From a virus, in the IMG/VR virus record IMGVR_UViG_3300020159_001039, positions 1-20,984 of that record: a stretch of 20,984 nt of DNA; one strand, given 5' to 3'. A program made the position numbers and the translations under genes. The notes under the pieces are model-generated. The model ran no database searches and was not told the origin of the DNA. It worked only from the letters and a program-made list of their open reading frames with translations. Position 1 is the first letter of the stretch, and each line of letters starts with the position of its first letter. This document shows, piece by piece, positions 115 to 17,727 of the stretch.

Positions 115-603
115 ATGGCTGATTTATTAATGAAAATGCCCTTTCAGTACGAACCGAAAAGAAAAAATAGGTTTATTCTTACATTCCCATCTTCTTTGGG
201 TATAAACTCTTGGTATGTAGAATCTACAGCAAGACCAAAAATTGAAATTAAAGAGGTTGAGATTCCATTCTTAAACACTTCAACTTATGTTGCTGGTCGT
301 TTTAATTGGGGAACAATTGAGGTTACATTCCGTGACCCAATCGGACCTTCGGCTTCACAAGCATTAATGGAGTGGGTTCGTTTACACGCTGAATCAGTAA
401 CAGGACGTATGGGTTATGCTGCCGGTTACAAAAAAGATATCGACCTTGAGATGTTAGACCCAACAGGTGTGGCAGTTGAGAAATGGATTCTACAAGGTGT
501 GTTCTTAACAAACGTTGACTTCGATTCATTAGGATATAGTGAAGACGGACTTATCACGGTTAAAGCAACTCTTAGACCTGACAGATGTATCTTGGTATAC
601 TAA
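115..603 (+). CDS. Tail tube protein (gp19-like)
   Basis: This 162-residue protein matches the T4 gp19 tail tube family in length (T4 gp19 is 163 residues) and in pattern. It has an N-terminal stretch with KRKNRFILTFPS, a central GTIEVTFRDPIGP strand, and a C-terminal part ending in ITVKATLRPDRC. Such subunits stack as hexameric rings to form the inner tube through which DNA passes inside the contractile sheath. The ATG at 115 is preceded by an A-rich leader and not by a Shine-Dalgarno site, as expected for Bacteroidetes. A strong hairpin terminator follows within 25 bases of the stop, so the gene can be expressed apart from the downstream baseplate genes, which suits a protein needed in many copies. 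The family assignment is by reading, without a database search. Confidence 0.88.
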   Translation: MADLLMKMPFQYEPKRKNRFILTFPSSLGINSWYVESTARPKIEIKEVEIPFLNTSTYVAGRFNWGTIEVTFRDPIGPSASQALMEWVRLHAESVTGRMGYAAGYKKDIDLEMLDPTGVAVEKWILQGVFLTNVDFDSLGYSEDGLITVKATLRPDRCILVY

Positions 604-698: not shown

Positions 699-1451
699 AT
701 GGATCAATCTGCACAATATGGACAAATGGATTTTAACTTACCACACGACGTGGTTTCGTTACCATCTAAAGGAATCTTTTATAAACCAAAAAAAGAATCA
801 TTAAAAGTGGGTTATTTAACCGCTGCCGATGAAAATATGCTAATGTCTCCAAATATGGCAAAAGACGGTTTAATATATAACTTATTAAAAAATAAAATTT
901 ATGAGCCTGGTTTTGATATTAATAATATGATTGACGTTGATATTCAAGCGGTTTTAATGTTTTTACGAACTACATCATTTGGAGGTGAATTTATTTATAG
1001 ATTACTTGACCCAAAAACAAATATGACATTTGAAACGACTGTTATTATTGACGAATTAAATTATTTGAAACCTTCACATGTACCAGATGAAAACGGTAAT
1101 TTTAATTTTATTTTACCTAAAAGTAAGAAAAATGTTAAACTTAGATTGATTACATTAGGGGACCAAAGAGAATTAGATAAAATAGAAAGTCAATATCCTT
1201 CAGGTATGGTGGCACCAATTGTTACAAAAAGAATGGAAAAAAATATAGTTGAAATTGATGGAGAAAGGGACAAAATGAAAATTAGTCAATTTATAAATCA
1301 GATGCCTATATCAGACTCTAAAGACTTAAGAAAATTTTTAAGAGAATGTGAACCAAAAATTGATTTAAATAAAACAGTAGTAGCCCCGTCAGGAGAAAAA
1401 GTAACTTTCGATGTTACTTTTGGGGCTGAATTTTTTCGCCCTTTCTTCTAA
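699..1451 (+). CDS. gp26-like baseplate/tail assembly chaperone
   Basis: This 250-residue protein resembles the T4 gp26 baseplate family (Pfam T4_baseplate). The N-terminus reads LPHDVVSLPSKGIFY, followed by a LTAADENML segment, then a region with IDVDIQAVLMFLRTTSFG and a C-terminal VTFDVTFGAEFFRPFF. In T4, gp26 and gp51 are needed for baseplate hub assembly, and similar pairs in other tailed phages act as tail assembly chaperones on the tape measure. Its place directly before the tape measure gene fits that role. The ATG at 699 is used because it follows an A/T-rich leader after the terminator; an internal ATG at 726 is possible. The last codons overlap a second reading frame (1411-1590) that looks like gp51, and the sequence at 1428-1440 could allow ribosomes to shift into it. 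Confidence 0.75.
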   Translation: MDQSAQYGQMDFNLPHDVVSLPSKGIFYKPKKESLKVGYLTAADENMLMSPNMAKDGLIYNLLKNKIYEPGFDINNMIDVDIQAVLMFLRTTSFGGEFIYRLLDPKTNMTFETTVIIDELNYLKPSHVPDENGNFNFILPKSKKNVKLRLITLGDQRELDKIESQYPSGMVAPIVTKRMEKNIVEIDGERDKMKISQFINQMPISDSKDLRKFLRECEPKIDLNKTVVAPSGEKVTFDVTFGAEFFRPFF

Positions 1452-1590
1452 TCATAAAAAGGCGTTATTAGATGAAATTTATTACTTGGTGAAGTACTGT
1501 CACTTTTCATATGGTGACATTATGATGATGCCGACATTTGAAAGAAGGTATTTCATAGATAAGTTAATTGAGGAAAAACAAAAAACATAA
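1411..1590 (+). CDS. gp51-like chaperone segment, overlapping frame, probably made by frameshift
   Basis: This frame is +1 relative to the gp26-like gene. From an ATG at 1411 it encodes 59 residues; the convincing part is residues 15-59, with ALLDEIYYLVKYCHFSYGDI and then MMPTFERRYFIDKLIEEK. That pattern (acidic helix with aromatics, MP, an RR/aromatic turn and IDKL) is typical of gp51/gpT-type tail chaperone C-terminal parts. The start is unclear. An AGGAG lies 15 bases before ATG 1411, which is far, and the first 14 residues look like a shadow of the other frame. A shift at TTT-TTT-CGC (1431-1439) would instead fuse it to the gp26-like protein, giving about 296 residues. Both routes are possible; the frameshift is favoured. 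Confidence 0.65.
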   Translation: MLLLGLNFFALSSNHKKALLDEIYYLVKYCHFSYGDIMMMPTFERRYFIDKLIEEKQKT

Positions 1591-1618: not shown

Positions 1619-3571
1619 ATGTTTTTAGGAGGTAATAATGTTAATACGCAAGGTCAAGGGTCTACTGCTGACCAATACTCCCAAGGTCAAGGATTTGGTG
1701 ATCAAATAAAAGACTTAGGAGAAGCGTTTGCAAACTATGTAGTTAGTGCCGAAAACTTATTAAAACCAATGGAAAATGCCGTTAAGGCATTTACCCATAT
1801 GGAAGATTCTTCATTGGCCATCCAAAAATCTATGGGTGGGTTTGCGTATTCGTACTACAAAACGATGTCGGACGGATCTAAAAAATTAGTAGAAAACACT
1901 TCTGAACTTAGAAATAAGTTAATGGATACGTTTAAATCGACACAAGATATAGGTGGGACTTTTGACGATGCTGCGAAAGCTATGGGGGCTTTAGCGTCAG
2001 GAATGGGTAGAATGGTTAACCCAAGTACTGAAGTTTTGACTAATATGGTGACATTAGCTCAAAGTACTGGATTATCCAACGAGGAAGTCGGGGACATGGT
2101 TACAAATATGGTTAGATTTAATGGAAACCAACAAGAGGCAACTAAAACCATGGCATCGTTAGCTATGGAAGCAAGAAAAGTTGGAATCAATACCAAAGGT
2201 TACATGAAAGAAGTTTCAACTAATATGAAACTATTAAATGGTTTTGGTTTTAAAACAGGAATTGACGGTATTAAAAAAATGGCTAAAGAGGCACTACTCT
2301 TAAGATCGTCCATAGAAAAAATAGGAGCCGCAAAATTTCAGAATAAAATTTTAACACCTGAAGGTGCTATTGAGGCCGCTGCGAGTATGCAAATGTTAGG
2401 AGGAGCGATGGGTAAATTGTCCGACCCATTCCAATTAATGCATATGGCTCAATCAGATATGGCTGGATTGCAAAAAGAGTTAGTTAATGCGACCAAAGCG
2501 TCGTTCGCCTTTAATAAAGAAACTGGTGGTTTTGACGCGTCAACACAAGATTTATATAAATTAAGAGAGCAGGCTGAAATTACGGGGGCTAATTTTGATG
2601 ATTTAGTTGAAGCAGGAAGAGAGGCCGCTAAAATGGACTACATAAAATCAAAATTTGACCTTAGTGGTTTAGATGATGCATCACAAGGTGTTTTGGCTAG
2701 TTTGGCGGAAATAGATAAAAGTGGTAAGGTAACTGTGGATTTGCCGGGTTATGAAGAAGGTAATAAAAGTTTGGAACAAATGATGAAAGATCCCGTATTT
2801 GTTCAAAAATTGGATGAATATAACCAACAATCAATGCTTAGTGAAAAAGAAATTGCACAAAGGCAAATGTCAATTACTGAGCAACAGGCAAGGGATGTGA
2901 ATATTATTAAAAACGCGGTAATTTTAGGGTTTAGTGACCAAGCAAGAAAAGACATTTATACTCAATTAAAAGAAAGTAATGATACTGCAAAAAGTGCTAT
3001 AACGGAAGCCAGTAAAGATATTGGTGAAGAGGTTGGCAGACAAGTTGTCCCCACTATGAGTACTTTAGGGACCGCATTTAATACTGCAATTAATCAAACA
3101 ACAGGGTATGGTAATCCTGCTAATAAGACGAAACAAGATGCGATTAAAGGTGCTATTAGAAATACCGGAACCGCTATTGGTAATGCGGTGACTGCAGCAA
3201 CCCCAACGATGGTTAGCGATATGTTTGTACCTGCCGGAGGTGCACCAACTTTATTAAATGAAGGTGCTCTTTATAAGGGTATCGTTGGTGATGAAGTGGC
3301 TATCGGAACAAATCTTACTGAAGCATTTAACAAGTCTGGTAAATTAAATGAAATAATGTCAAGCGTACTTTCAACAAACAATACGGGTGGAGGTAAACCA
3401 TCTGTTGATGGTAAAATAGACATTAATATTAACCTAACAGGTGCAATATCAGGAGATAAAAATGCTGACGTTGAAAAAATGTTTAGTGACCCAAGAGTTC
3501 AGAAACAAATAATGGATACCGTTCTTTATAAACTTGATAGTTACAAAAGACAACAAGGTGTTCTTTCTTAA
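1619..3571 (+). CDS. Tail tape measure protein
   Basis: This 650-residue protein has the look of a tape measure. It is mostly helical, Ala/Lys/Met-rich with few cysteines, and contains long helical runs such as residues 30-130 and 150-330, including QMLGGAMGKLSDPFQLMHMA near residue 260. The C-terminal part is Gly/Ala/Thr-rich with possible hydrophobic helices (residues about 490-560) and ends in a short domain with IDININLTGA. T4's tape measure gp29 is 590 residues, so the length is right for a myovirus; at the usual ~1.5 Å per residue it would set a tail of very roughly 100 nm. The gene follows the gp26/gp51-like chaperones directly, as expected. A GGAGG at 1628-1632 lies inside the gene and precedes only an out-of-frame ATG, so the start at 1619 is kept. 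Confidence 0.8.
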   Translation: MFLGGNNVNTQGQGSTADQYSQGQGFGDQIKDLGEAFANYVVSAENLLKPMENAVKAFTHMEDSSLAIQKSMGGFAYSYYKTMSDGSKKLVENTSELRNKLMDTFKSTQDIGGTFDDAAKAMGALASGMGRMVNPSTEVLTNMVTLAQSTGLSNEEVGDMVTNMVRFNGNQQEATKTMASLAMEARKVGINTKGYMKEVSTNMKLLNGFGFKTGIDGIKKMAKEALLLRSSIEKIGAAKFQNKILTPEGAIEAAASMQMLGGAMGKLSDPFQLMHMAQSDMAGLQKELVNATKASFAFNKETGGFDASTQDLYKLREQAEITGANFDDLVEAGREAAKMDYIKSKFDLSGLDDASQGVLASLAEIDKSGKVTVDLPGYEEGNKSLEQMMKDPVFVQKLDEYNQQSMLSEKEIAQRQMSITEQQARDVNIIKNAVILGFSDQARKDIYTQLKESNDTAKSAITEASKDIGEEVGRQVVPTMSTLGTAFNTAINQTTGYGNPANKTKQDAIKGAIRNTGTAIGNAVTAATPTMVSDMFVPAGGAPTLLNEGALYKGIVGDEVAIGTNLTEAFNKSGKLNEIMSSVLSTNNTGGGKPSVDGKIDININLTGAISGDKNADVEKMFSDPRVQKQIMDTVLYKLDSYKRQQGVLS

Positions 3572-3612: not shown

Positions 3613-6600
3613 ATGGAAAGTCCACTATCATTTAATTCGTCAGAAAACTTTAGAAAGAAACTATTGGTTCGTAATCTACCCGCTTACCGAGTAGATGGTT
3701 CGTTCAGTAGTGGTGATAGACCCGCAGTAGGGGAATTTACAATTTTAGACTACGCAATAGTAGATTCAGAACAAGTAGACGTTATTGGGGATAGGCAAGA
3801 GAGACTATTGTACCCAATTAATCAATACGGTCCCGAAAACAAAAACTCTTACGGAGACATGGTTAAAATTAATTTTAACCGTAACTACAAAACAAACGAG
3901 GGTGAATACGGATTTCCTGACAGTATTAATAGTGATTTGGAGACTATAGGTAACAGTTCAGAGTTATATCATATTGTAAAAAATGTTTACAAACCACAAA
4001 ATAATAGAAACGACTACGGGGATAGTGTTTATTACATTAATAATGATAATAATATAAACACCGTAGGTAGTGGTGAATATAATATAGTTGATACGTTTAA
4101 TAGTTTTTTATTCCAAATTGGAAACAATAGTGAGGTAGAGCACAAAGTATTAAACAAATACAAACCAAATAATGGAGGCAATACTGATTTTGGTAATACC
4201 AAATACGAAATTAATAATCTACTTACTCTACCAAGTAATAATCAAATATTCGGTTATAATATAACATATACTATTAATAATGCGTTAGAACAAATAGGTA
4301 ATAACCAAGAAACGGTATTAATAACAAAAAACAAATATTCGCCTGAAAACTCAAACCAATACGGTAATACAAAATATAGTATCAATAATGATTTAATACT
4401 TGGGTCAAATCAAGGTGAATACAATTATGGTGATACTATTGGTGATGCTTTGGAACTTAAAGGTGTTGAATTAAGACCTACATTATTCACGAACAATGAA
4501 TACCGACCTGAAAATGGACAAAGTGTTTTTGAGGTTGAACCTTTTAGGATTCAAAAAAATCTAATAATTGGTTCAGGTAACTATGGTTATGATGACACTA
4601 TCGGTAGTGATTTAGAGTCTGAAGGTAAAACCGACAGACCTATATTAATTGCAACAAATCAATACGGACCTGATAACCCTATTAAAGGTGAAGCACCAAT
4701 AAATAGAAATTTACAAACAAAATCTAATGAAGGTGAATATGGATATCCTGATACTGTTAGTAGTGAATTGGAAGTTGTTGGTATTGACGAAAGAAAACCA
4801 ACATTTTTACAAAATGCTTGGGGACCTGAAGGTAATCAAAGTAGTGAGGAGGTTGACCCTTATAGAAAACTTAAAAATTTAACAATTAATCAAGGTAACT
4901 ACGACGTTACTGACACCGACCAAAATGAATTAGAGTTTGTTGGTGGTGTAAAAGAAACTGAGGCGTATGTAAAAAACAAATATGTGACAGGTAATGGTGA
5001 TTATAATACCTTAACAATCCAAGACCTACAATACACAACAACTGGTTTACCATATGCTAACTCTGACTCTACTTTTGTTTTCGTACCTTCAACATACTCA
5101 CCCGCTAGTATCTTAATAAGTGATAACCCTAATGGGTCAGACGGTAGTCTTTCACAAGATTCACAATTAGCAGCATTAGGCGCAAAACAATTACAAAAAG
5201 AATTTAAACATAGAGTTGCTTTAGAATTACTACAACAAACTTTAGGTAGGGTAAACTTATTAAATTCTAATGTTAATCCTGACACGGGTGAGATTTCAGC
5301 AAAACCTAATTTAGACCCATTTAATGCTATTGGTTTATTGACTGGTAACGTACCAATTATCGCAAGAAACTATTCTATAACTAATCCTGATTCATTTTTA
5401 GGTCAAGGCATAAATTTTGCGGCAAAATTAGCAGGCACATATTCACCATATTCATACATAACTGGAGAATATTTTGATTACCCTGATAATAAAGGTAATG
5501 GACCTTTCCAAAACCCATTATCAAGATTAGGAGGAGCATTAGGTTCATTATTTAGTATTAAACAACCAGCCAACCAATCATCATCTGAATTATTTGTTGA
5601 ATTTACATCAGTAGCAACTAGAAGTTTACTGTATGACCAATTAAAATATAATCCTTATAGACCAAACTATAAGATAGGAAATAACTTATTAGCACCTCCA
5701 GGTGTGTTTTATATAGGTGATAGGAAAAGTTCAATAACTGAGGAGGTTTCGCCGTTTGAACAATTACCATTAAATAAAGATGGTTCAGGGTCAAGTAACG
5801 GTCCCGTGTTATCTTATGGTAATGTTGGTAAATTATATGAAGGCGAAAAATTAACCGGAGCGTTATTTGGTTTAAACACTAGAAACTTCTACAGTGCAGG
5901 TGCTAAAGATACGAGTACTTGGGCTTCCACAAATATTGTTGGGGGGTTAACTTGGACATCTAACGCAGGTACTGGAAGTAAAAATTATACATTACCTGGT
6001 AAATTACAAGGTAGAGGTGGGGTTGATTTTATCGACGATTCCGATTTTAATTTTGATAGATTATCAAGTGCATACAGCCCAAGTCAATCAAGTGATTATG
6101 GATTCACCCCTGGTTCCATTTTAGATGTGACCCAAAAATTAGTGGATGCGGGAAATCAATCACCTAACAAATTAGAACATGTTGGTAATGCGATTAATCA
6201 AGTATCTAAGGTGTTTAATGACGGTTACCAAGAATTAACAAAAGGTTCTAGAGTTATACGATACACCACTCCAAATTCTATTGTTGGTGCAAATCAAAGT
6301 GCTTATTTTGAGGTAAAAGGTTTTGAATATTGTAGGGTATTCACAAAAGATAGGCCATACTACACATTTGATGAATTACAAAAACCTGATGGTAATATTA
6401 GAAAATATACAAATTCGGTTCTAGATAGTACGTTTAATTTAAATATTGCACCATTAGGTGGTGTTGACTCTACAAATATTAAAGACGGTAGGGTTAAGAA
6501 ATATATGTTGTCTTTAGAAAATCTTTCATGGAGAACTTCAAACAAACCGGGTTATACTTATGAAGATTTACCTGATTGTGAAAAAGGACCTAATGGTGGG

Positions 6601-9600
6601 CGTATAATGTGGTTCCCACCTTACGATTTAAGTTTTGATGAGAGTATAAGTACAGGGTGGCAAGACAATACATTTTTAGGCCGACCTGAACCAATCTACA
6701 CATATACTAATACCTCTAGAAAGGGTAACATAAGTTTCAAAGTTATTGTTGACCACCCATCAATTATGAATGTATTAGTGGATAAGGAATTAGAAAATGA
6801 GTCATCCAATGAAACAATCAATCAGGTTATTGATTCATTCTTTGCGGGATGTACTAAATATGATTTATACGATTTAGTAAAAAAATTCCCGATGTTTACC
6901 CCAAGTGATGTATTCGAAGTTCAATTACTTAATACTCCTGAGGATGTTAAAACGTTTACTGAAATATTACCTAATACTGTTATTGAACAAGAGATAATCG
7001 AAAAAAAAATTCCACCCGATCCTATACCAACACCTGCACCATGTACTAGTTGGCAAATTAGTGTCGGAACTACAACAACGGATGTTTCATATACTGATTG
7101 TGATGATAACCTTATTGTTTTATCTGCGTTAACATCAACCGCAACAACAGTTTGTGTTAAAAGAAATTCAGTACCTACCTTTACGGTTAGTGATGTTGCT
7201 AATACCGTAACAAATACGACACAACCTTGTAGTACACCACCAACGGTTACGGTAACACCACCTTTGGTTACTGAAGCACCAATAGAAAATCAATTTCCTG
7301 AAGTAGGGTTCTTCTTTCATAATGATTATCCCGACCCATCAGATAGTTATAGGATTTATGCGTCAAAACCTTATGATTTTTGGTTAAATATATATAAAGG
7401 TTTGAAAACTAAATATTTAAATCTTGGTGGTAACTCAAATCCGGCAACTTCACATGATTTTGGTAAAGCGTTAGATAAAATTATTAAATACGACGATGCT
7501 ACATATGTGGATTATACGTCACAACTTTTGAGTTCTGGATCTGACCTTATAGAGAAAAACACATACTTAGCAGACTACATTGAGACTAGAAAAGACCCGA
7601 TAACTGAATTCTTTTCTTTTATTGAAAGCGAATTCACTGAAGCGCAAAACTTTGTTAATAAAATATCGATAGCATTAGATGCTGGTGAAACTGTTTCTTT
7701 TGAGCTTTTGGGTTCAGCATCTGCATTAAATAGTAATAGTTATAATATTAATTTATCAAGAAGAAGAATTGACTCGGTAATGCAATGGATGTTTAACCAA
7801 AAAACACCAAAAGGAATCAAATTAGAAAAATATTATACTGATAAAAAATTAACTATTAAGATGACACCCAGTGGTGAGTCTGGAAAATTACTTGAACCTA
7901 AATATGCTTCTATTAGTTGTACTAGGGATTATGAAAATGAATCGAATGAAGGTGTTGTTTCGGTAAATGCCATGGCGTGTCGTAGAGTAAAAATAGTTAA
8001 TTTAAAGGTTAGTAATAATAATGCTCAAACACAAACACCACCTGCTCAAACACAAACATCTCCAGTTAATAACAATGGGGATACAAGTGTTATGGATCCA
8101 TTACCACCTAACACGGCTTCAGGAGTTAATACTCAACCGGTAGACCCAACAATTGAGTTACCACCTTATATTAATCCAGTACCATCTGGAAATACGGATA
8201 CTAATATTACTCCGCCATCATCATCCGTAAAACCACCATCAGGTAAAATTACACCTAAAAAAAGAACTGATTTAACTAAGAGATTGGCTAGAAAACTTTT
8301 AACAGAGTGTAATTACTTTGAGTTGGTTAAAAGAGAAAACCCAATGATATATGATGGTATAAAAAGTAAAATTAAACACTTCCATCCTGTATTCCACTCA
8401 ATTACGCCTGAAGGATTAAACGCTAGATTAACATTCTTACAACAATGTATGAGACCTGGCGATACAATACCTACGGTTTCTAAGGATGGTAATAATACTA
8501 AGTTAATCTATAATGATGTGACTAATAGTGTCTTCGGGGCACCTCCTGTGTGCGTTTTAAGGGTTGGCGATTTCTTCCATACTAAAATTGTTATCGATTC
8601 TTTAAGTATTAAATATGAAGATGGTAGATTTGATTTAAATCCTGAAGGTATTGGTGTACAACCTATGATTGCGGACGTTAATCTTGGATTTAATTTTATC
8701 GGTGGTCACGGTTTGGCGGGACCTATAGCAACATTACAAAACGCGTTATCATTCAATTATTATGCGAATACTGAAATGTATGATGAAAGGGCTGAGGCAA
8801 CTGAAGATGTGACATCACAATATGATGCTGAAATATTTGAAGACATTAAAAACCAAATAGGTGTGATTGAGGCTGACGACGATAGGTTAAATAGTACAGA
8901 AGGTGGGGTACCTATTGGTGTACCTGTAACTACTTATTTAGACCCTAATAATCTTAACTTAGTTTCAGGTACTATTAGTTATACTGAAATTATGAAAAAA
9001 CTTGTTGATAGTACTAAGTCTAGTTTAACTACAACCATAGATACACTTGAAAAAATTAATAGTGAGTTCTTAATTGGTGGGTTACAAATATTAACAAAAG
9101 ATAGAAAATATATTGATGGACATATAGGTGTAGGTACTACAGATAATGTTAAGATATTTGGTAAAGCGGACACTATACAAGGTAAAGTTGAAAACCTTAT
9201 TACTAAGGCAAAAGAAGATGTTGATAATGATTTGTGTCCGGCTATAGATTTAGTTGCTAATCAAAACTTTAGTGACCAAGATATTAGAAAAATTAAGAAT
9301 CAGATTAAATCATTAATTGATGCTAAACAAGATGTTTTAATAGGTTCACTAGAAAATTACGCAACACAGATAGGTAATGAAGAATTGAAACTTATTAATA
9401 TTATTGACAAGGTAAATTATGTAAATAATGCCCATGATGGTTATATCAATAATAAGGGAAATGTTATAGTATATAATATTTCAGGTACAACACAAATAAC
9501 ACCACCAAACGCGGCATCGGTTACTAATACTTTACAAGAATTAAATGCAGATACTGATGAAATAAAAAAGAGCTTAGAAAAATTCTATAACCAAATTAAT

Positions 9601-10125
9601 AATGGTATCATCATACCTTCAGGTAATACTGAGTATAATGATAATTTTGTTTTTAGTTGTTTGTTGGGTAATAATATAATCACGGAAAACGAAAATAGGT
9701 TCTTCATGTTGTTTGGTAAAGATGTGCTAGCAGACCCTGTTAAATTTGCATCATCTATCACATCACCGGTACAAAATACACCAAATGATGTTGCATGGAA
9801 CTCATTTGTTTTAAATAACTTAGGTTGGAATTTTAATCTTAATTTAACTACAGGTCAATTTGTGAGTCAACCGATACCTAATGGTTTATATTCTAACTAT
9901 GAAGTATCTAAGAAAACTGTTGACGATTCATTTAAGAAATTTAGAGATGATTACTTTAATAATACTTTCAATACCTTTAAACCATACAATGAATCTAAAA
10001 CAAGAATATTGACTTATGAAATAATTTTAACATCTACATCACCATATGATACTGATTTACAAAATATATATTCTAACACTAATTCTTCTGGGGATAAATT
10101 TAATTTGAAAAAAACATTCACATAA
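3613..10125 (+). CDS. Giant multidomain baseplate protein with repeats and OmpA-like domain
   Basis: This 2170-residue protein is far larger than any T4 baseplate protein. Segments in order: residues 70-482, seven full and one partial ~55-residue repeats (N-x-Y-x-P-E-N starts, then GEYxYxDT and a DLExxG turn); 510-980, a body with EFKHRVALELLQQTLGRVN and a NPYRPNY region; 983-1051, a β-rich part with LPDCEKGPNGGRIMWFPPYD and FLGRPEPIYTY, like other phage baseplate/tube-fold domains; 1137-1224, a Cys- and Thr-rich insert; 1228-1463, an OmpA-like domain; 1466-1552, a Pro/Thr/Gln-rich linker; 1553-1730, a conserved-looking domain (FHSITPEGLNARLTFLQQCM, then VLRVGDFFHTKIVID) that could be a tube-initiator-like fold; and a helical C-terminus. 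The stop overlaps the next ATG (TAATG), suggesting coupled translation. A baseplate role is inferred from position and these segments; exact T4 equivalence (gp48/gp54/gp6/gp7) is unknown. Confidence 0.72.
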   Translation: MESPLSFNSSENFRKKLLVRNLPAYRVDGSFSSGDRPAVGEFTILDYAIVDSEQVDVIGDRQERLLYPINQYGPENKNSYGDMVKINFNRNYKTNEGEYGFPDSINSDLETIGNSSELYHIVKNVYKPQNNRNDYGDSVYYINNDNNINTVGSGEYNIVDTFNSFLFQIGNNSEVEHKVLNKYKPNNGGNTDFGNTKYEINNLLTLPSNNQIFGYNITYTINNALEQIGNNQETVLITKNKYSPENSNQYGNTKYSINNDLILGSNQGEYNYGDTIGDALELKGVELRPTLFTNNEYRPENGQSVFEVEPFRIQKNLIIGSGNYGYDDTIGSDLESEGKTDRPILIATNQYGPDNPIKGEAPINRNLQTKSNEGEYGYPDTVSSELEVVGIDERKPTFLQNAWGPEGNQSSEEVDPYRKLKNLTINQGNYDVTDTDQNELEFVGGVKETEAYVKNKYVTGNGDYNTLTIQDLQYTTTGLPYANSDSTFVFVPSTYSPASILISDNPNGSDGSLSQDSQLAALGAKQLQKEFKHRVALELLQQTLGRVNLLNSNVNPDTGEISAKPNLDPFNAIGLLTGNVPIIARNYSITNPDSFLGQGINFAAKLAGTYSPYSYITGEYFDYPDNKGNGPFQNPLSRLGGALGSLFSIKQPANQSSSELFVEFTSVATRSLLYDQLKYNPYRPNYKIGNNLLAPPGVFYIGDRKSSITEEVSPFEQLPLNKDGSGSSNGPVLSYGNVGKLYEGEKLTGALFGLNTRNFYSAGAKDTSTWASTNIVGGLTWTSNAGTGSKNYTLPGKLQGRGGVDFIDDSDFNFDRLSSAYSPSQSSDYGFTPGSILDVTQKLVDAGNQSPNKLEHVGNAINQVSKVFNDGYQELTKGSRVIRYTTPNSIVGANQSAYFEVKGFEYCRVFTKDRPYYTFDELQKPDGNIRKYTNSVLDSTFNLNIAPLGGVDSTNIKDGRVKKYMLSLENLSWRTSNKPGYTYEDLPDCEKGPNGGRIMWFPPYDLSFDESISTGWQDNTFLGRPEPIYTYTNTSRKGNISFKVIVDHPSIMNVLVDKELENESSNETINQVIDSFFAGCTKYDLYDLVKKFPMFTPSDVFEVQLLNTPEDVKTFTEILPNTVIEQEIIEKKIPPDPIPTPAPCTSWQISVGTTTTDVSYTDCDDNLIVLSALTSTATTVCVKRNSVPTFTVSDVANTVTNTTQPCSTPPTVTVTPPLVTEAPIENQFPEVGFFFHNDYPDPSDSYRIYASKPYDFWLNIYKGLKTKYLNLGGNSNPATSHDFGKALDKIIKYDDATYVDYTSQLLSSGSDLIEKNTYLADYIETRKDPITEFFSFIESEFTEAQNFVNKISIALDAGETVSFELLGSASALNSNSYNINLSRRRIDSVMQWMFNQKTPKGIKLEKYYTDKKLTIKMTPSGESGKLLEPKYASISCTRDYENESNEGVVSVNAMACRRVKIVNLKVSNNNAQTQTPPAQTQTSPVNNNGDTSVMDPLPPNTASGVNTQPVDPTIELPPYINPVPSGNTDTNITPPSSSVKPPSGKITPKKRTDLTKRLARKLLTECNYFELVKRENPMIYDGIKSKIKHFHPVFHSITPEGLNARLTFLQQCMRPGDTIPTVSKDGNNTKLIYNDVTNSVFGAPPVCVLRVGDFFHTKIVIDSLSIKYEDGRFDLNPEGIGVQPMIADVNLGFNFIGGHGLAGPIATLQNALSFNYYANTEMYDERAEATEDVTSQYDAEIFEDIKNQIGVIEADDDRLNSTEGGVPIGVPVTTYLDPNNLNLVSGTISYTEIMKKLVDSTKSSLTTTIDTLEKINSEFLIGGLQILTKDRKYIDGHIGVGTTDNVKIFGKADTIQGKVENLITKAKEDVDNDLCPAIDLVANQNFSDQDIRKIKNQIKSLIDAKQDVLIGSLENYATQIGNEELKLINIIDKVNYVNNAHDGYINNKGNVIVYNISGTTQITPPNAASVTNTLQELNADTDEIKKSLEKFYNQINNGIIIPSGNTEYNDNFVFSCLLGNNIITENENRFFMLFGKDVLADPVKFASSITSPVQNTPNDVAWNSFVLNNLGWNFNLNLTTGQFVSQPIPNGLYSNYEVSKKTVDDSFKKFRDDYFNNTFNTFKPYNESKTRILTYEIILTSTSPYDTDLQNIYSNTNSSGDKFNLKKTFT
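3820..5060 (+). repeat. Degenerate protein repeats (7 full + 1 partial, ~53-59 residues each)
   Basis: Units begin at residues 70, 124, 181, 240, 295, 349, 402 and 455 of the 2170-residue protein. Each starts with N-x-Y/W-x-P-E/N-N. Most full units then carry a YG/INN-type stretch, a GEY-G/N-Y-x-DT motif and an acidic D/E-L-E-x-x-G. The DNA units (159-177 bp) have diverged strongly, so this is an old protein repeat and not a recent tandem duplication. Confidence 0.85.
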
Positions 10126-10442
10126 TGAAATATTATAATAGATATGATGATTTTTTAATTAACGGTACCCCAACCGTGGTACCATTTTTAAATATACCAC
10201 CAAGATCAACGGACCAAAGATATGTCTACAGAACTAATCAAAGTAGACTTGATAAAGTTAGTTATGAAAAATATGGGACACCATATTTCAGTTGGTTAAT
10301 TTTGGCTGCAAATCCACTTTTTGGTGGATTAGAACAGGATATACCTGATGGTACAATATTAATTATACCATTTCCGTTAGTTGCTGCCCTGCAAGACTAC
10401 AAATCTGCATTAGATACACATATTTTTTATTATGGCAGGTAA
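10125..10442 (+). CDS. LysM-like baseplate wedge protein (gp53-like)
   Basis: This 105-residue protein contains a LysM-like core: RLDKVSYEKYGTPYFSWLIL (residues about 41-60), then AANPL, then IPDGTILIIP near residues 74-83. T4 gp53 (196 residues) includes a LysM-like fold and joins wedges around the hub, and small LysM proteins occur in many contractile-tail baseplate loci, usually beside the hub gene. The present protein is only about half the length of gp53, so it may be equivalent to its LysM part or to a tail protein X. Its ATG overlaps the previous stop by one base, and its last 11 bases overlap the start of the 2431-residue hub-like gene, so the three are likely translated in a coupled way. 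Confidence 0.7.
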   Translation: MKYYNRYDDFLINGTPTVVPFLNIPPRSTDQRYVYRTNQSRLDKVSYEKYGTPYFSWLILAANPLFGGLEQDIPDGTILIIPFPLVAALQDYKSALDTHIFYYGR

Positions 10443-13400
10443 GTTTTCAAACACAAAAAAAATATTTGTTGAAACGGAATATGATAACGTTATTTTAGTA
10501 AACCCAAATGAGGTTTATGCTGACGATAATGCAACCGCATCCCCTAGATTGGTAGACCACGAAGACTTGGTATATTATGCTAATTTAGAAACATTTATTA
10601 TTCCTAGAACAAAATTAGCAATTGGTAAAAGTTTAGAATCACCAGTATATAATACTATTGCAACAATATTTGGTGGTGATGACGATTTAAAAATAAACTT
10701 TTTAAAACCAAAAGGCGGTAAAACTAATTTTGATACAAGTTGGTCCGACCAAATAACTGGCGATAATAGTAGAACGGGTGGGGGATTAAATCAAAAAACA
10801 GAACAAGTCGTTAATGTTGATGGGTCACCTAAATTTAAAAATAGTGTAAGTAATTACGAAGACACCCAATTATTGGGAATCAAATCTATTAGGGTTAGTA
10901 TTAAAGGAACTGGAGTTCCTGAAGTTAATATAGAAATGATAGACATTCAAGGTAGGTCTCTTTTTGAGCAAGGTGAAAATTCATTATATTCTGCGTTCTT
11001 TAACTTTCCATACCCATTATTTTATCTAACACTTAAAGGTTATTACGGTAAGGCTATAAGATATCGATTATCTTTAATGTCATTCAATGCTAAATTTGAC
11101 GCTGACACTGGAAATTACAACATCAGTTTGAAACTTGTTGGTAAATTTACGGCACTTCTTTTTGATACTCCTTTACAATACGCTCAGACAGCCCCAAAAA
11201 TGTATAATACTCAGATAACTGAGACAGACCCAATAAGCAAGACTGTTAGACAATTAAATACGTATAAGGGTAGACAAAAGTTACATGAGGTTTACCAAAT
11301 CTATAAAAGAAAGGGGTTAATTGCTAGTGATTTTGATGAAATATCGATAGATGAGTTTACTTATCGAGTGAATAACTACGTAAAAGTAATTTTAGATTCA
11401 TTAATAAATGATAAAAAAGGTGATTTTACACAACTTAATGATATCATAGATTACAGAGAAAATTTAACAAAACTAAAAAAAGAAGTTTACGAAAATTCGT
11501 TAAATAATTTTTTAGATAGGAGTAGTTACTACGTTGTTGAAACAAATGGAGCGAATGAAATATATTATCCATTTAGAAAAGAAATATCGGACCAAACTAA
11601 AGAAGAATACAAAACAAAAACAAACGAAAGGATTACTACTTATGTTGAAAATCTTAAAAACAACACAACATTTGGTACTAATTCAAAAGATGCTAAAAAA
11701 CAAATTCCTGTAACACTAAAAAATAGTAGTGACGTAATAAAAAAATTAGATTTTATTAGTTGGATTGGTAATGAAAAAAACGTACAAAACACATTTTACT
11801 TTAGGACGGGGAAACAATATGACCCAAACAATCCTGATATAGTTGAGGACTACCAAAAGTTCGTATTGGATGAACAAAAAAACGCACAATTAACAACAAA
11901 GGTATTACAAAATGGTGCTTGGGTTAATGAGACTCCCGATTACTTTGTTTTTGGGGACCAGCTAGTAAATAATGGTCTTTATGTAAAAAATAGTTATTTG
12001 TTTAAGTTAGACCAAATGGAAAAAACTTTAAACACAAATGAAGAAACAATTGAAAAAGAGTTAGGTGGTTTATTGGCGGATGCTGCAACAGCTAATTTAG
12101 GTTTTGTTCCAACTATTAGAAATGTGTTTGCGGTTATAATGGCTGGTGCCGATGCGTTTTATAGGTTAATGGAGGAGGTGCATCAAGATGCTTGGAATGT
12201 TAGGGATGATGCCGCAAGATTAAGGTCTGTTATACCACCTGAAAAATCATTTTCACCTGAGGCTCTTAAATCATTACAAACATCTAGTGGGGAATTAAAT
12301 AAGGATAACGTTATTTATCCTTGGCCTTTATATTTTACATTAGAAAAACAAAAAGACGGGAGAGAATTATATACTATACAATATCCTGGAGACTCTAAAG
12401 TTATTAATCAAACCAGAGGTTATGATTATAGAATTTGGCCTGAAATTGGTTTCGTCGAGGCATATTTAAAAGGTTCCACAGAAAAGGCAAAACCTGTGGA
12501 GGGTAACCTTTACGAAAATCCATTGGATACTACTAAGTTTGTTTCTGCAAATGCTTTAGAGTTCCCATTTAAAACATTACCCTACCAAGATTTAGATGCT
12601 ATAAAAACGTTTTATGAAATATTCGAACGTTCATACATTATTGCACATTACAGTAAGTTAGACCCAACCGTTGTATCACCAAAACAAATAGATAAATTCT
12701 ATGGTGATATTGAAAGTAAAAATATAAGTTTAGTTGCTTCTGATGATATTTCATTAAATAAGACATTAAAGGAGTTAAAACTTAATTTAACAACCTTGTT
12801 AGATTACATGAAAAAAATATCAAGTAACGGACAAGGTGATAGTTGGCAAACATATTTAAGAAGTTTATTCAAAACTGAATACTTAGAAAATATGTTAAAA
12901 GTACAAGATGAAATTTATAGTATTGATACTTTAAGTTCTAGAAGTTTAAAAGTATCCTCAGACCAACCATTAGTTACTAATTTAACGGATTATTTAAAAA
13001 GTACCGATAGCTCAAAACTAAATGCCTTAGACACATACCCTTTTACTAATGTTAATTGGTTAAAAAATAATATGTCTAACGGATTTACTTTAAATTCATT
13101 TGAAGAATTTAACGACACCACTAAAACTTTTGTTTATTTACAAGATAAAAAGACAATAGCAAGAATTAATGAGACCGAAACTTATAATAACATTAAATTA
13201 TTTACTGACGATTATTCTTTAAAAAGTAATGTACAACCTTATATTACTGACCAAACAAATAGTGTGTCGGTAACCACAAGACAGACATTACGAGATTTCT
13301 ACACTTATAGGGAAAATAAAAATTACTACATTACCGAATCGTCAATTGTTTATGGTAACTCTTATAGTGGTCAAGTAGGTGAAAACTATCAAACAACATC

Positions 13401-16400
13401 TTTGTTAAACACACCTTACTTCATTAATTCAATGGTAAATGGTGTTGAGTTAAAAAAGAATAATAATAAGACTGCGTTTGTGCCCTTAGGATATTTATAC
13501 CTTAATTCATTACCGTTAATAACAACAAAAGAAAGGTTGAAAAATATTAATGATGACGACACTATAACGGATTTAGATTATTTGGCATCAACATTTAAAA
13601 AATATTCAGCTATACATCAAGTGCCTTATGCTTGGGTATTGAAATACGGGTCAATTTGGCACAGATACAAAAAGTTTGTAGATACTGGTGTTGATATTTT
13701 AGATAGTGTTTGGAAAGACTTTGATTACGCAGGTTCATACGATCCTGTAACTTCTGCGGTAACTACACAATATACTATTCCTAATTATACGGGAGGTAGT
13801 CAAACTATATCTTTACAAAATACTGAATCATTTCCTACTCCATCTAACCAAACAAAAGATATAATTAACGTGGGGTTTTACCCTAAAGTAATAAATGCCA
13901 TTAATAATTTTGTAATAGGTAAAGATTTATTAACGGGATACACTACGGCCGATTTCCTAACAGCATACACTGAAAATAAACTAAGAATCGGAGTTAATAG
14001 TCAGTCAACGAATTATTTAAATTTTGGGTTTGATACCACAAACATTAATAGATCATTAATAAAACAAAATTTCTACCAATATAGAGAGTTTAGTGCTACA
14101 ACATCAATCAATGAAGGTAATACATCAATCTTACTTTACCCATCGATGGGAGGTATCCCAATTGACCAATCAATATTCGAATGCGTTAACAGTACTAATA
14201 ATTTAACTACCGAACTTTTAAATAATAAATCACTTTATAATGGGTCGGTAAGGTCATTATGGGGGTCATCCCATTTTGGATATTTTGATAATAGTCTAAT
14301 TAAAAAACCATCACCAACACAATATTTAAAAAACATTGCGGAAAGTAATACGGGTCAATACCCTTTCGATTTAGAATCGACACAATCTTATTATTCAAAC
14401 ATAGATGAAATTTTTAGTATCTTCACAGTTGAAATGTTAGATAAATTTGAAGAAAAGTTTTTAGGCTTCTGTAATTTTAATCCTGAAGCAAAAGACCTTT
14501 CATTAAATGATGAGATAATATCACCAACCTATAACCAAACAGGTGGTATACATAATTTAGAAGAAAAATCACTTATTAGTCAAATCAAATCATTATTTGT
14601 AATAAGTAAAAATGGTCTTGATTTTACAAATCAAAATAATGATGGCAAAACATTAGCGACAAAACAAATAAATACGTTTACAGAATCGGTTAAGAAGTTT
14701 TTAAATTTTGATTGTGTTATTAAATTAGGTAACCCTGGACACTTCGATAGAAAATTATTTAATTCATTTTCTAATTTAACTCAATTTGTACCAACCGATA
14801 AATATGAATTTTTACCATATGTTAAAGGTACGTTACCTGGTGACGGAACACCAATAACATTACTACAAAGTATAGCACAAAACAAAGGTGCTTGGGATTC
14901 ATTAAGAAAATATTTGGGGTATTCTACAATACCAAATATAGAATATCAGAACCAAGTTCAGACTGTATACCCGTCAGTACCATTGTCACCAACACCAACA
15001 ACAACGACGTTTACGCCGCCAACACCAAACCAAACATTTAGAACCTTCCAAGATTTATGTACAGGACAATACTTTAATATTATTGATACGAATAATAATT
15101 CTACAACACCATCATTCAATTACGTTAATAATCATGTATGGTTTTTGGAGGTTCTTGATAATACATCACAAGTAAAAAAATTCTGTGCTAGGAAAGTCCC
15201 TAATAGTGCGGTAACAACAACATATAATTTGGAGTTTGACGATAATTATCCTCAAACAAATGCTGTGAATATCACACCTGAAAGCTATTGTTTATCTTTT
15301 TATCAAACACAGATAAATTGCCAACAACCTAATTTAGCAACATCTCTACAATTAGAGTTTGTGGGTAATAGCTCTGTTATCCTACCCGAAACTCCAAATC
15401 AGGACAACATTAACTATTTTAATATTGTTATACCTACCGGTGGATACGCGGTTTATAAATTAACAGGGATACCTGTTTTTGACCCAACAAATTTTGGAAG
15501 TACTCGTTTTTATTCTGCTAACAGTGATATAAATGACCCAAATAATCTTCAATTACCTAAAAGTGGTAATAGTGGTTTAAATACAAACTATGCGAAAGTG
15601 TTTGAGGTTAATAATAACACTTCAGGAAATTATATAATGACCGTTAGTTACAGTATCAATGGCGGAGGCACATATCAAACATTAGTTGCAAATATATCAA
15701 CAGTTGGTGGTAATCAAACAACTATACCTACATCTATAACGGCAACACAAAATCCTACACCACTACCTAATACTCAAAAATCTTATGTAACTGATTTCTT
15801 CATTGATAATGATATCGCATTTACATCTGCGAATATTGAAACGGCATACCCATTAGTTAGATTATATGCTGAACAAAAATTAAAAGACCCTACGTTTAAT
15901 AAAGCAAAATTTACAACATTTATAAATAATTACTTAACGTCACAGTATCAGTTACAAAATGGTATTGTTAATGAAACCTTCACTAACTTAAATCAAATTT
16001 TAAAAGATATTAAAATCACAACAAACAATGAGCCTGTTGCGGTTAATGGTGATAATACAAAATTAAGTCTTTATAACACATTGAAAGGTTTTAACGATAA
16101 ATGGATTGCGGGTTCTGATTTAAAAACTGTAACTCTATTTGAGGACTTTTTATTTATGGATAGGGCAAACAGTGATTTAGGTGATACATATATAGTTGAT
16201 ATACAAAAAGTGCTTAATAGGTTAGATACTGAAAAAAACCCAGACATGAATTTAATGCAGGTTGTTAGTAACATTTTAACCGATAATGAATTTATGTTTA
16301 TGGCAATGCCGGCATATATTAATTTTTATGGTTTACAAGAGTCAGTCAAAAATGGTAAACCAGTTCAAGATACTGAAGTTGGTAATTCACTTTTCGGTAC

Positions 16401-17727
16401 ATATTTAGAGGTCGATTATACAAAATCAAGTCCTAAATTTTTATGTCTTTATATGGGTAATCCTTCAGAATACCCTAAACCAAAAGAAAATTCATTTAAC
16501 CGATTTGGTGATGATAGTTTTGATTTAAGAGTACCTGACAATCCATTAAGGATTTCAGACCCAAACAGGGATTATTCAAAAACTAATAGAGTTGTTGGAT
16601 TTAGTGTGGATTTTGGTATACAGAATCAAAGTATATTTAAGAGTCTTGATTTAGATATGTCTGAAATGAAAAACACGTCCGAATCATTTAAAGTGTTCGC
16701 TGATATAGGTAGTTCAGTTTCCGGAGATAAAGTTGGACAACAATCAACATCGATGTATAGTATCTACAAGTCTAGATCCTATTCTTGTGGTGTGCAGTCT
16801 ATGGGTAATGTTATGATACAACCAACTATGTACTTCGTATTGAGACATGTGCCAATGTTTTATGGGCCTTATTGGATTTATGAGGTTAATCATAACGTAT
16901 CGGAAAGAGGTTTTGACACTGACTTTAAAGGTACAAGGATACCTAAATATAGTTTACCAAACGTAAATAATCTATTAGTTAATGTTAATAAGAGAATTTT
17001 AAGTTCATTTAAAGAAAAGATTAAAAAGGTTATACCTGAATCGGAAGTAACTACACAATCACCGGCTGAGATTGAATTAACAAAAGACCCTAATATTGTT
17101 AAAACCCCAGAAGCCCAATGTTTGGATTTAACAAAATACCCAACAGTACCATTCTCACCTTTAATGTCTAAAACGGATACAGTTAACGATGTAATACCTT
17201 TTATTAAGACAGCTACACCTAACGCAAAATTAAGGGCACTATTCTTAGGTATTGCAAAAACTAGACCTTTAAATGGGTTTAATAATGGATCAAATACATT
17301 TAACACTATTAATAATAATTTATATGAGATTACAACATCAAATGAACCAAGAGGTAATCTAGGGTCATTTATTACTGAACAATCTTGTGTTAATATATAC
17401 AACATCAATGTACCTATTGCTAAATTCCCAAATATTGGAACAGCGACTGACTATATGGTATCTTATTATCAAGTTTACGAACCTTTAATTGAAAACTTAA
17501 AAAATGTTAATCCAAATACTAATGTGAATGTTAGTTACGGAAAGGCGTTAGCTCAATTGGCGTCTTGTACTTGGGATACTGCCGCAGCAATAACCTCATC
17601 ATTGAATGCTCAACAGATTAAAGACTATACAGAAAATATTATATATTCAGGAGATGCTACAACATATAACATTTTAGTTAATATTTATAAAGATGCTTAT
17701 GAGTATTTTGTACAAAACCCTAACTAA
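10432..17727 (+). CDS. Giant baseplate hub-like protein
   Basis: This is a 2431-residue protein. Residues about 135-260 (IKSIRVSIKG, VNIEMIDIQGRSLFEQGENS, FYLTLKGYYGK) resemble the first tube-like domain of gp27/VgrG-type hubs. Residues about 544-590 form a conserved-looking hydrophobic helix (LGFVPTIRNVFAVIMAGADA). Residues about 1520-1780 are an insert: Thr/Pro linker, a Cys-containing domain (LCTGQYFNIID, VKKFCARKV), then a β-rich domain and a second Thr/Pro linker. Residues 2053-2165 resemble the late-control/hub domain, with MGNVMIQPTMYFVLRHVPMF and a YEVNHN turn before FKGTRIPKY. Residues about 2230-2431 look like a decayed wall-hydrolase-type domain (LGIAKTRPLNG, INNNLYEI). It probably seats the tube and spike at the baseplate centre. 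The gp27 relationship is inferred; a separate gp5-like spike gene is not seen here. Confidence 0.68.
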   Translation: MAGKFSNTKKIFVETEYDNVILVNPNEVYADDNATASPRLVDHEDLVYYANLETFIIPRTKLAIGKSLESPVYNTIATIFGGDDDLKINFLKPKGGKTNFDTSWSDQITGDNSRTGGGLNQKTEQVVNVDGSPKFKNSVSNYEDTQLLGIKSIRVSIKGTGVPEVNIEMIDIQGRSLFEQGENSLYSAFFNFPYPLFYLTLKGYYGKAIRYRLSLMSFNAKFDADTGNYNISLKLVGKFTALLFDTPLQYAQTAPKMYNTQITETDPISKTVRQLNTYKGRQKLHEVYQIYKRKGLIASDFDEISIDEFTYRVNNYVKVILDSLINDKKGDFTQLNDIIDYRENLTKLKKEVYENSLNNFLDRSSYYVVETNGANEIYYPFRKEISDQTKEEYKTKTNERITTYVENLKNNTTFGTNSKDAKKQIPVTLKNSSDVIKKLDFISWIGNEKNVQNTFYFRTGKQYDPNNPDIVEDYQKFVLDEQKNAQLTTKVLQNGAWVNETPDYFVFGDQLVNNGLYVKNSYLFKLDQMEKTLNTNEETIEKELGGLLADAATANLGFVPTIRNVFAVIMAGADAFYRLMEEVHQDAWNVRDDAARLRSVIPPEKSFSPEALKSLQTSSGELNKDNVIYPWPLYFTLEKQKDGRELYTIQYPGDSKVINQTRGYDYRIWPEIGFVEAYLKGSTEKAKPVEGNLYENPLDTTKFVSANALEFPFKTLPYQDLDAIKTFYEIFERSYIIAHYSKLDPTVVSPKQIDKFYGDIESKNISLVASDDISLNKTLKELKLNLTTLLDYMKKISSNGQGDSWQTYLRSLFKTEYLENMLKVQDEIYSIDTLSSRSLKVSSDQPLVTNLTDYLKSTDSSKLNALDTYPFTNVNWLKNNMSNGFTLNSFEEFNDTTKTFVYLQDKKTIARINETETYNNIKLFTDDYSLKSNVQPYITDQTNSVSVTTRQTLRDFYTYRENKNYYITESSIVYGNSYSGQVGENYQTTSLLNTPYFINSMVNGVELKKNNNKTAFVPLGYLYLNSLPLITTKERLKNINDDDTITDLDYLASTFKKYSAIHQVPYAWVLKYGSIWHRYKKFVDTGVDILDSVWKDFDYAGSYDPVTSAVTTQYTIPNYTGGSQTISLQNTESFPTPSNQTKDIINVGFYPKVINAINNFVIGKDLLTGYTTADFLTAYTENKLRIGVNSQSTNYLNFGFDTTNINRSLIKQNFYQYREFSATTSINEGNTSILLYPSMGGIPIDQSIFECVNSTNNLTTELLNNKSLYNGSVRSLWGSSHFGYFDNSLIKKPSPTQYLKNIAESNTGQYPFDLESTQSYYSNIDEIFSIFTVEMLDKFEEKFLGFCNFNPEAKDLSLNDEIISPTYNQTGGIHNLEEKSLISQIKSLFVISKNGLDFTNQNNDGKTLATKQINTFTESVKKFLNFDCVIKLGNPGHFDRKLFNSFSNLTQFVPTDKYEFLPYVKGTLPGDGTPITLLQSIAQNKGAWDSLRKYLGYSTIPNIEYQNQVQTVYPSVPLSPTPTTTTFTPPTPNQTFRTFQDLCTGQYFNIIDTNNNSTTPSFNYVNNHVWFLEVLDNTSQVKKFCARKVPNSAVTTTYNLEFDDNYPQTNAVNITPESYCLSFYQTQINCQQPNLATSLQLEFVGNSSVILPETPNQDNINYFNIVIPTGGYAVYKLTGIPVFDPTNFGSTRFYSANSDINDPNNLQLPKSGNSGLNTNYAKVFEVNNNTSGNYIMTVSYSINGGGTYQTLVANISTVGGNQTTIPTSITATQNPTPLPNTQKSYVTDFFIDNDIAFTSANIETAYPLVRLYAEQKLKDPTFNKAKFTTFINNYLTSQYQLQNGIVNETFTNLNQILKDIKITTNNEPVAVNGDNTKLSLYNTLKGFNDKWIAGSDLKTVTLFEDFLFMDRANSDLGDTYIVDIQKVLNRLDTEKNPDMNLMQVVSNILTDNEFMFMAMPAYINFYGLQESVKNGKPVQDTEVGNSLFGTYLEVDYTKSSPKFLCLYMGNPSEYPKPKENSFNRFGDDSFDLRVPDNPLRISDPNRDYSKTNRVVGFSVDFGIQNQSIFKSLDLDMSEMKNTSESFKVFADIGSSVSGDKVGQQSTSMYSIYKSRSYSCGVQSMGNVMIQPTMYFVLRHVPMFYGPYWIYEVNHNVSERGFDTDFKGTRIPKYSLPNVNNLLVNVNKRILSSFKEKIKKVIPESEVTTQSPAEIELTKDPNIVKTPEAQCLDLTKYPTVPFSPLMSKTDTVNDVIPFIKTATPNAKLRALFLGIAKTRPLNGFNNGSNTFNTINNNLYEITTSNEPRGNLGSFITEQSCVNIYNINVPIAKFPNIGTATDYMVSYYQVYEPLIENLKNVNPNTNVNVSYGKALAQLASCTWDTAAAITSSLNAQQIKDYTENIIYSGDATTYNILVNIYKDAYEYFVQNPN

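Follow-up and report, generated by a model that had tools for sequence, protein, structure and literature searches.

Does a phage tail gene that is overlapped by an open reading frame (ORF) in the +1 register encode one protein or two, and, if two, how would ribosomes pass from one frame to the other? The question is raised by a gp26-like gene in a 20,984-base IMG/VR virus record, analysed here over its whole length (the window). The gene and its +1 ORF (699–1451 plus 1405–1590) are followed by a probable tail tape measure gene at 1619–3571, which is syntenic with the gene annotated as tail tape measure protein in Flavobacterium phage immuto (Table 1). The 0-frame stop is the TAA at 1449–1451, and a +1 shift at 1431–1439 would yield a fusion of 296 residues (246 + 50). 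We propose that programmed +1 frameshifting produces a short (gp26-like) and a long (gp51-like) tail assembly chaperone from this one gene. This is the likely explanation for the locus as a whole; that the frameshift is real we regard as very likely, in the absence of protein-level data.

The window also carries gp32-like and UvsX-like genes. Two very large ORFs, 3613–10125 (2170 aa) and 10432–17727 (2431 aa), probably encode baseplate proteins; a Pfam search with the latter gave no significant match.

Table 1. Features of the locus, numbered by position in the window.
Feature	Position	Strand	Remarks
Tail tube (gp19-like) gene	115–603	+	Upstream of the gp26-like gene; PHROG 4542, E 7.5e-28
gp26-like tail assembly chaperone / baseplate hub gene (function inferred)	699–1451	+	0-frame product 250 aa
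5' hairpin	1381–1428	+	Outer stem 1381–1388/1421–1428; inner stem 1398–1405/1413–1420; loop 1406–1412
Conserved 9-nt bulge of the 5' hairpin	1389–1397	+	TCAGGAGAA
+1-frame ORF	1405–1590	+	Stop 1588–1590; open in all relatives
ATG of the +1 ORF	1411–1413	+	The only one before the slip site; not conserved
Slip site TTT TTT CGC	1431–1439	+	Proposed slip from TTT to TTC in the P site, where the A site holds the rare CGC
C-terminal part of the fusion (gp51/T-like domain)	+1-frame residues from 1438 on	+	50 aa
Probable tail tape measure gene	1619–3571	+	Directly downstream; from position and synteny with immuto

The +1 overlap is conserved and its second frame is under coding constraint

We collected 80 close relatives from IMG/VR (49–82% amino acid identity) and 160 distant loci from two groups, for which Microcystis phage Mel-JY01 and Flavobacterium phage immuto served as seeds, and scored the overlap as present where the +1 frame ran at least 120 nt beyond the 0-frame stop or off the contig. 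All 80 close relatives whose stop is readable have it, as do all 157 readable loci of the two distant clades, and a scan by the slip-site pattern alone returned 120 stretches, every one of them with the overlap. Bacillus phage SP-15, Listeria phage LIS04, LR756508, Rhodothermus phage RM378 and Streptococcus phage GXN1 have it as well. Loci within one clade are related, so these counts are not independent events, and representatives were used where this was relevant. Profiles built from the whole fusion in each of the three groups can be aligned over their full length (E 2.6e-34 and 5.6e-57). Past the 0-frame stop, the difference rates at the three codon positions of the +1 frame are 0.405, 0.288 and 0.518 in the close clade; because differences are fewest at position 2 and most frequent at position 3, the second ORF encodes a protein.

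All tallied relatives, whether close or distant, have the second ORF in the +1 frame; the only −1 case seen was Agrobacterium phage Atu_ph07 (our locus L375, ~3790–3810). There the C-terminal domain, at the same gene position, is in the −1 frame after CAT TTT TTC GCA, and a −1 frameshift at the U_UUU_UUC heptamer is likely. In LR756511 (L374, ~3796) the domain is in the −1 frame with a TAATG stop-start overlap, and may be a separate, reinitiated ORF. Public annotations list a hypothetical gene for the second ORF in immuto (L084 4833–4943), SP-15 (L086 4740–4859) and Mel-JY01 (L083 4740–4976), with no frameshift noted; those of immuto and SP-15 shorten it to a later start, and those of LIS04 and GXN1 omit it.

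The second frame has no usable conserved start

The ATG at 1411 in the window is preceded by AGGAG 15 nt upstream, and is found in only four of the 23 dereplicated close relatives. Ahead of the slip site, start codons of any kind (ATG, GTG or TTG) are missing in 19/47, 6/24 and 1/23 dereplicated members of the three clades, and in two loci (L039 and L040) the +1 ORF lacks all three codons altogether. Independent initiation fails because so many relatives have no possible start codon in the second frame; a conserved independent start was found in no set of relatives. Among the Mel-JY01-type phages there are several in which only 2 nt separate the opening of the +1 frame from the first TTT, with the end of the 0-frame 18 nt beyond that TTT; the shift is thus confined there to 20 nt that include the slip site. 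The locus has what marks G/GT-type frameshifting, namely a conserved slippery site without an independent start for the second ORF.

An invariant slip site points to a +1 shift

Conservation of the slip site was scored on 32 close-clade representatives with less than 90% nucleotide identity. TTT TTT CGN CCT is invariant in all 32, its third positions fixed while other codons vary. The arginine is always CGN and never AGA or AGG, even though arginine is mostly encoded by AGA. Across the window's genes, with about 6,700 codons, the only CGC is that of the slip site, and CGG is absent; in 140 kb of the closest relative, the frequencies per thousand are 0.23 for CGC, 0.33 for CGG and 22.6 for AGA. 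With CGN following, TTT is able to re-pair as TTC, and this arrangement, UUU followed by CGN with re-pairing to UUC, is met in 32/32 representatives. The invariant CCT is explicable because a Leu codon of the +1 frame overlaps there. Among the window's listed genes an in-frame TTT TTT occurs only once, and TTTTTTCG has a single occurrence on the + strand of the window.

The site varies in more distant relatives: TTT TTT TGG, TTT CTT TGG, CTT TTT TGG and TTT CTA TGG are found in the distant clades (the second in immuto, the last in L298, L309 and L320), TTC TTT CGT in GXN1, TTT CTA TTC in LR756508 and TTT TTT AGT in LIS04. At the GXN1 site a +1 slip is possible on the second codon only. TTT CTA TGG and the LIS04 site need the first TTT, and the slip codon may therefore differ between clades. 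A −1 slip at an X_XXY_YYZ heptamer, the G/GT prototype (albeit not a universal one), is not supported at this locus, where the overlap is +1. On this comparative evidence a +1 shift is far more likely than a −2 shift.

A covarying hairpin abuts the slip site

Immediately 5' of the slip site lies a 17-bp hairpin that covaries among the close relatives and in every one of them ends 2 nt before the site. The distance is identical, without a single indel, in all 32 sequences; with the second TTT in the P site, the base of the hairpin is separated by 2 nt from the E-site codon and by 5 nt from that in the P site. The predicted minimum free energy is −18.1 kcal/mol (z −3.29). Pairing is maintained in 92.8% of cells across the 32 distinct alignment rows and falls to 36–57% when the partners are slid by one to three columns. 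Double-sided changes number 51, against 18.3 in shuffles, and covariation is 0.328 versus 0.203 in shuffled alignments (0/500). When codons are randomised synonymously, the 48 nt preceding the slip site stand out with a z of −2.21 (SE 0.13), other windows along the gene giving values of −0.34 or above, about zero or positive. Third positions are also fixed in GCC CCG TCA GGA GAA, 35–50 nt upstream, and in GGGG, and it is these segments that form the hairpin. The covariation and randomisation tests show that the hairpin is a selected RNA structure.

Its bulge, TCAGGAGAA, is nearly invariant (GGAG in 31/32), more so than pairing demands; a Shine-Dalgarno (SD)-like role, protein binding or a tertiary contact are all possible. 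The AGGAG lies inside this bulge, 38 nt upstream of the P-site codon, and the window has no prfB-type SD-like sequence within a few nt of that codon. A stable hairpin is found only in the clade to which the window belongs. In the two distant clades structure is weak (z about −0.75), and an SD-like purine motif at positions −36 to −24 relative to the first TTT is enriched over synonymous randomisation (z −1.67 and −1.40). The immuto clade has this upstream motif although its leaders lack SD sequences. No specific signal for downstream (3') structure was detected in any clade (mean z 0 to −0.7), and an Rfam search returned no match above threshold.

On 70S ribosomes a hairpin juxtaposed upstream to the E site stimulates +1 and attenuates −1 frameshifting (PMC6321510). 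The SD:anti-SD duplex is placed 5–6 nt upstream of the P site, and for −1 attenuation a spacing of 2 nt outperforms one of 5 nt (PMC3639245). The hairpin described here has the features of a refolding upstream hairpin: it is stable, it abuts the E site and its pairing is maintained. A role as frameshift stimulator is the best reading and a likely one; it remains an inference, as experimental data on whether the shift requires the pairing are lacking.

Most of the initial annotation of the locus, made from sequence alone, stands. It had the gp26-like frame ending at 1451 and the +1 frame open to 1590, with TTT TTT CGC at 1431–1439 joining 246 and 50 residues into a fusion of ~296, all of which held. 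The expectation that CGC should be a slow codon held as regards its rarity, and a +1 slip from TTT to TTC is supported by all comparative tests, while the −2 alternative it offered is disfavoured by the GXN1 and L298/L309/L320 sites. Its claim that the second frame lacks a good start held in part: the ATG at 1411 exists, but is not conserved. It had named an independent start in relatives or an unconserved slip site as refuting; conserved independent starts are absent from every set of relatives, and the slip site has been kept. The covarying hairpin it had missed.

The fusion as an inferred counterpart of T4 gp51

The gp26-like product matches PHROG 150 'baseplate hub' (E 5e-10) and scores 21.5 bits against PF12322 (T4_baseplate), below the 24.5 cut-off. 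Its homologue in SP-15 scores 100 bits against the same family, with homology along the whole fusion (E 2.6e-34). The two parts of the fusion were folded separately with AlphaFold. The model of the gp26-like product matches the SP-15 baseplate hub subunit (TM 0.80, E 9.5e-16), and the 50-aa domain is predicted to form three helices (pLDDT 88). A fold search with the C-terminal domain (51 residues) gave no significant match, and searches of solved structures gave none. From the position before the tape measure gene, the link to PF12322 via SP-15 and the resemblance in fold to T4-like baseplate hub (assembly) proteins, the gene likely encodes a tail assembly chaperone, a function that is inferred.

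According to Pfam, T4 gp26 is the PF12322 domain alone and gp51 is that domain followed by 48 residues. Because gp51 has both the gp26-like domain and a C-terminal extension, it would be the counterpart of the whole frameshift product, with gp26 answering to the short one; this amends the initial annotation, which had taken only the second part to be gp51-like. Against the gp51 family profile the C-terminal part aligns colinearly but weakly, at low probability (E 0.0025 for the SP-15 group, 0.0056 for the domain alone), and hhalign comparisons to single-sequence T4 gp51 and gp26 gave no usable result. Since direct similarity to gp51 is weak, the equivalence is an inference.

Shine-Dalgarno usage and the putative hosts

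SD-like motifs occur in 3% of leaders in the close clade (1% in shuffled sequences), 0% in the immuto clade and 55% (9%) in the Mel-JY01 clade. The closest relative (IMGVR_UViG_3300034117_001582, G001), a 292-kb contig of which 140 kb were sampled, has A-rich leaders without SD sequences, with SD-like motifs in 5/117 (4.0 expected), and no tRNA gene was found in the sampled 140 kb. Low SD usage fits hosts with an occluded anti-SD such as the Bacteroidia (PMC8710568), although the host of the window is unidentified. F. johnsoniae prfB retains an SD-containing +1 site despite this occlusion, and a hairpin is therefore not the sole solution. We dropped the general rule that a hairpin replaces the SD, as the Flavobacterium clade has no SD leaders and yet combines an SD-like motif with a weak hairpin.

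A model for decoding of the locus

In the proposed model, one T4-like tail chaperone gene would be decoded in two ways. Most ribosomes would stop at 1449 and release the short gp26-like protein, while a fraction would shift +1 at TTT TTT CGC. While the A site, holding the rare codon CGC, is slow to be filled, the peptidyl-tRNA-Phe paired with the second TTT would move forward by one base to TTC; reading would resume at GCC CTT and add the 50-residue three-helix domain. The resulting long form of 296 aa would be the equivalent of T4 gp51 (or lambda gpGT). Once unwound by the ribosome, the hairpin would tend to re-form in the mRNA exit path, where, like the Shine-Dalgarno duplex in prfB, it would keep the ribosome from moving back and favour the forward shift. 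The occurrence and efficiency of the shift are inferred only, as is the notion that both products are made, or needed, in a set ratio.

Alternative explanations

Two alternatives concern details of the model. A +1 slip on the first TTT (as TTT T or TTT C) rather than the second is possible in nearly all variants, including TTT CTA TGG and LIS04, and in the window would give the same protein. We consider it unlikely: it leaves unexplained why CGN is invariant in place of the common AGA, and GXN1 can slip at its second codon only. The hairpin, in turn, could serve a purpose unrelated to frameshifting, for example as a protein-binding operator. Its bulge is almost invariant, as is common for binding sites, and the distant clades have the +1 overlap without a stable hairpin. 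Against this stands the fixed distance to the slip site, and we hold a separate purpose to be improbable.

Other alternatives dispense with the +1 shift itself. Separate translation of the second ORF, by overlap or reinitiation, could start from the ATG at 1411 or a nearby TTG; most close relatives do have a TTG, and LR756511 may have the domain as a separate ORF. However, beyond the counts of missing start codons given above, several relatives have a +1 stop right before the first TTT, the common TTG is incidental to the TTTGGGG of the hairpin, and the close clade has no SD leaders, which makes this reading very unlikely. If peptidyl-tRNA-Phe slipped by −2 on the run of six T, a mechanism proposed for Mu-type tail genes, translation would enter the same frame after one additional Phe; the TTTTTT run does not vary within the close clade and allows the re-pairing. 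Re-pairing fails at TTC TTT CGT, TTT CTA TGG and the LR756508 site, and on the first two of these variants a −2 slip is disfavoured. A hairpin juxtaposed to the E site is moreover reported to hinder backward slips, and a −2 slip does not require the CGN that invariably follows the run. We regard −2 slippage at the locus as very improbable. Transcriptional slippage on the homopolymer of six T, a run that is short for polymerase slippage, and sequencing error are all but excluded: hundreds of contigs agree, and in one distant clade the run is interrupted (TTTCTTTGG) with the same overlap.

Relation to known systems and implications

The preferred reading, a +1 shift on the second TTT, can be set beside several known systems. 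The G-T frameshift is conserved in long-tailed phages 'except T4', with one likely +1 case in archaeal HSTV-2 (PMC5009743). Lambda G/GT likewise makes two proteins from one gene before the tape measure, a short one and a frameshifted long one with an alpha-helical extension, but the lambda shift is −1, whereas ours is +1 at UUU_CGN with a 5' hairpin. T4-like phages carry one short and one long fused gene (PMC10885494) and are reported to use another mechanism (Vladimirov et al. 2022, via PMC10885494). T4 gp26 and gp51 are linked to our locus through the PF12322 domain by way of SP-15, and gp51 has a C-terminal extension of ~48 aa with a similar motif (SISKMIPAERGFVLKLIEK vs DIMMMPTFERRYFIDKLIEEK); the T4 proteins, however, come from two genes on opposite strands, without a frameshift.

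In prfB (RF2), too, a P-site tRNA slips +1 next to a slow A site, with a duplex abutting the E site. There the duplex is SD:anti-SD and the A site holds a stop codon; here an intramolecular hairpin is paired with a rare sense codon. UUU_CGU shifts +1 in influenza A, and PA-X shares with our locus the UUU_CGN shift codons and the direction, but on eukaryotic ribosomes and with no conserved 5' hairpin reported as a stimulator (PMC3498833). Refolding hairpins a few nt upstream are predicted to favour +1 and oppose backward slips (PMC3639245, PMC6321510); the published +1 effect comes from reporter constructs, while the hairpin of the window's clade is natural, covarying and conserved. What appears to be new is the combination: tail chaperones of T4-like phages made by a +1 shift, UUU_CGN as the shift site in a phage, and a naturally occurring 5' hairpin next to the E site. 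Our reading of the literature covered an open-access subset, and an earlier report in a subscription journal is possible.

A bolder interpretation, towards which we lean by a narrow margin, is that this is a natural +1 shift on bacterial ribosomes in which a dedicated, covarying 5' hairpin stands in for the Shine-Dalgarno duplex, in hosts that probably hide their anti-Shine-Dalgarno; in that case T4 genes 26 and 51 would represent, in split or duplicated form, what is elsewhere one frameshifted gene. The hairpin would be the natural counterpart of an effect so far known from reporter constructs, and would allow the influence of structure behind the ribosome on the direction of slippage to be tested in a compact system. 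On our preferred reading, a +1 frameshift at this gene has gone unannotated in a large and mostly uncultured T4-like group, the cultured members of which include Bacillus, Listeria, Rhodothermus, Flavobacterium and Streptococcus phages. That one gene would have met with four solutions: a +1 shift, a probable −1 shift in Atu_ph07, a possible separate ORF in LR756511 and two genes in T4.
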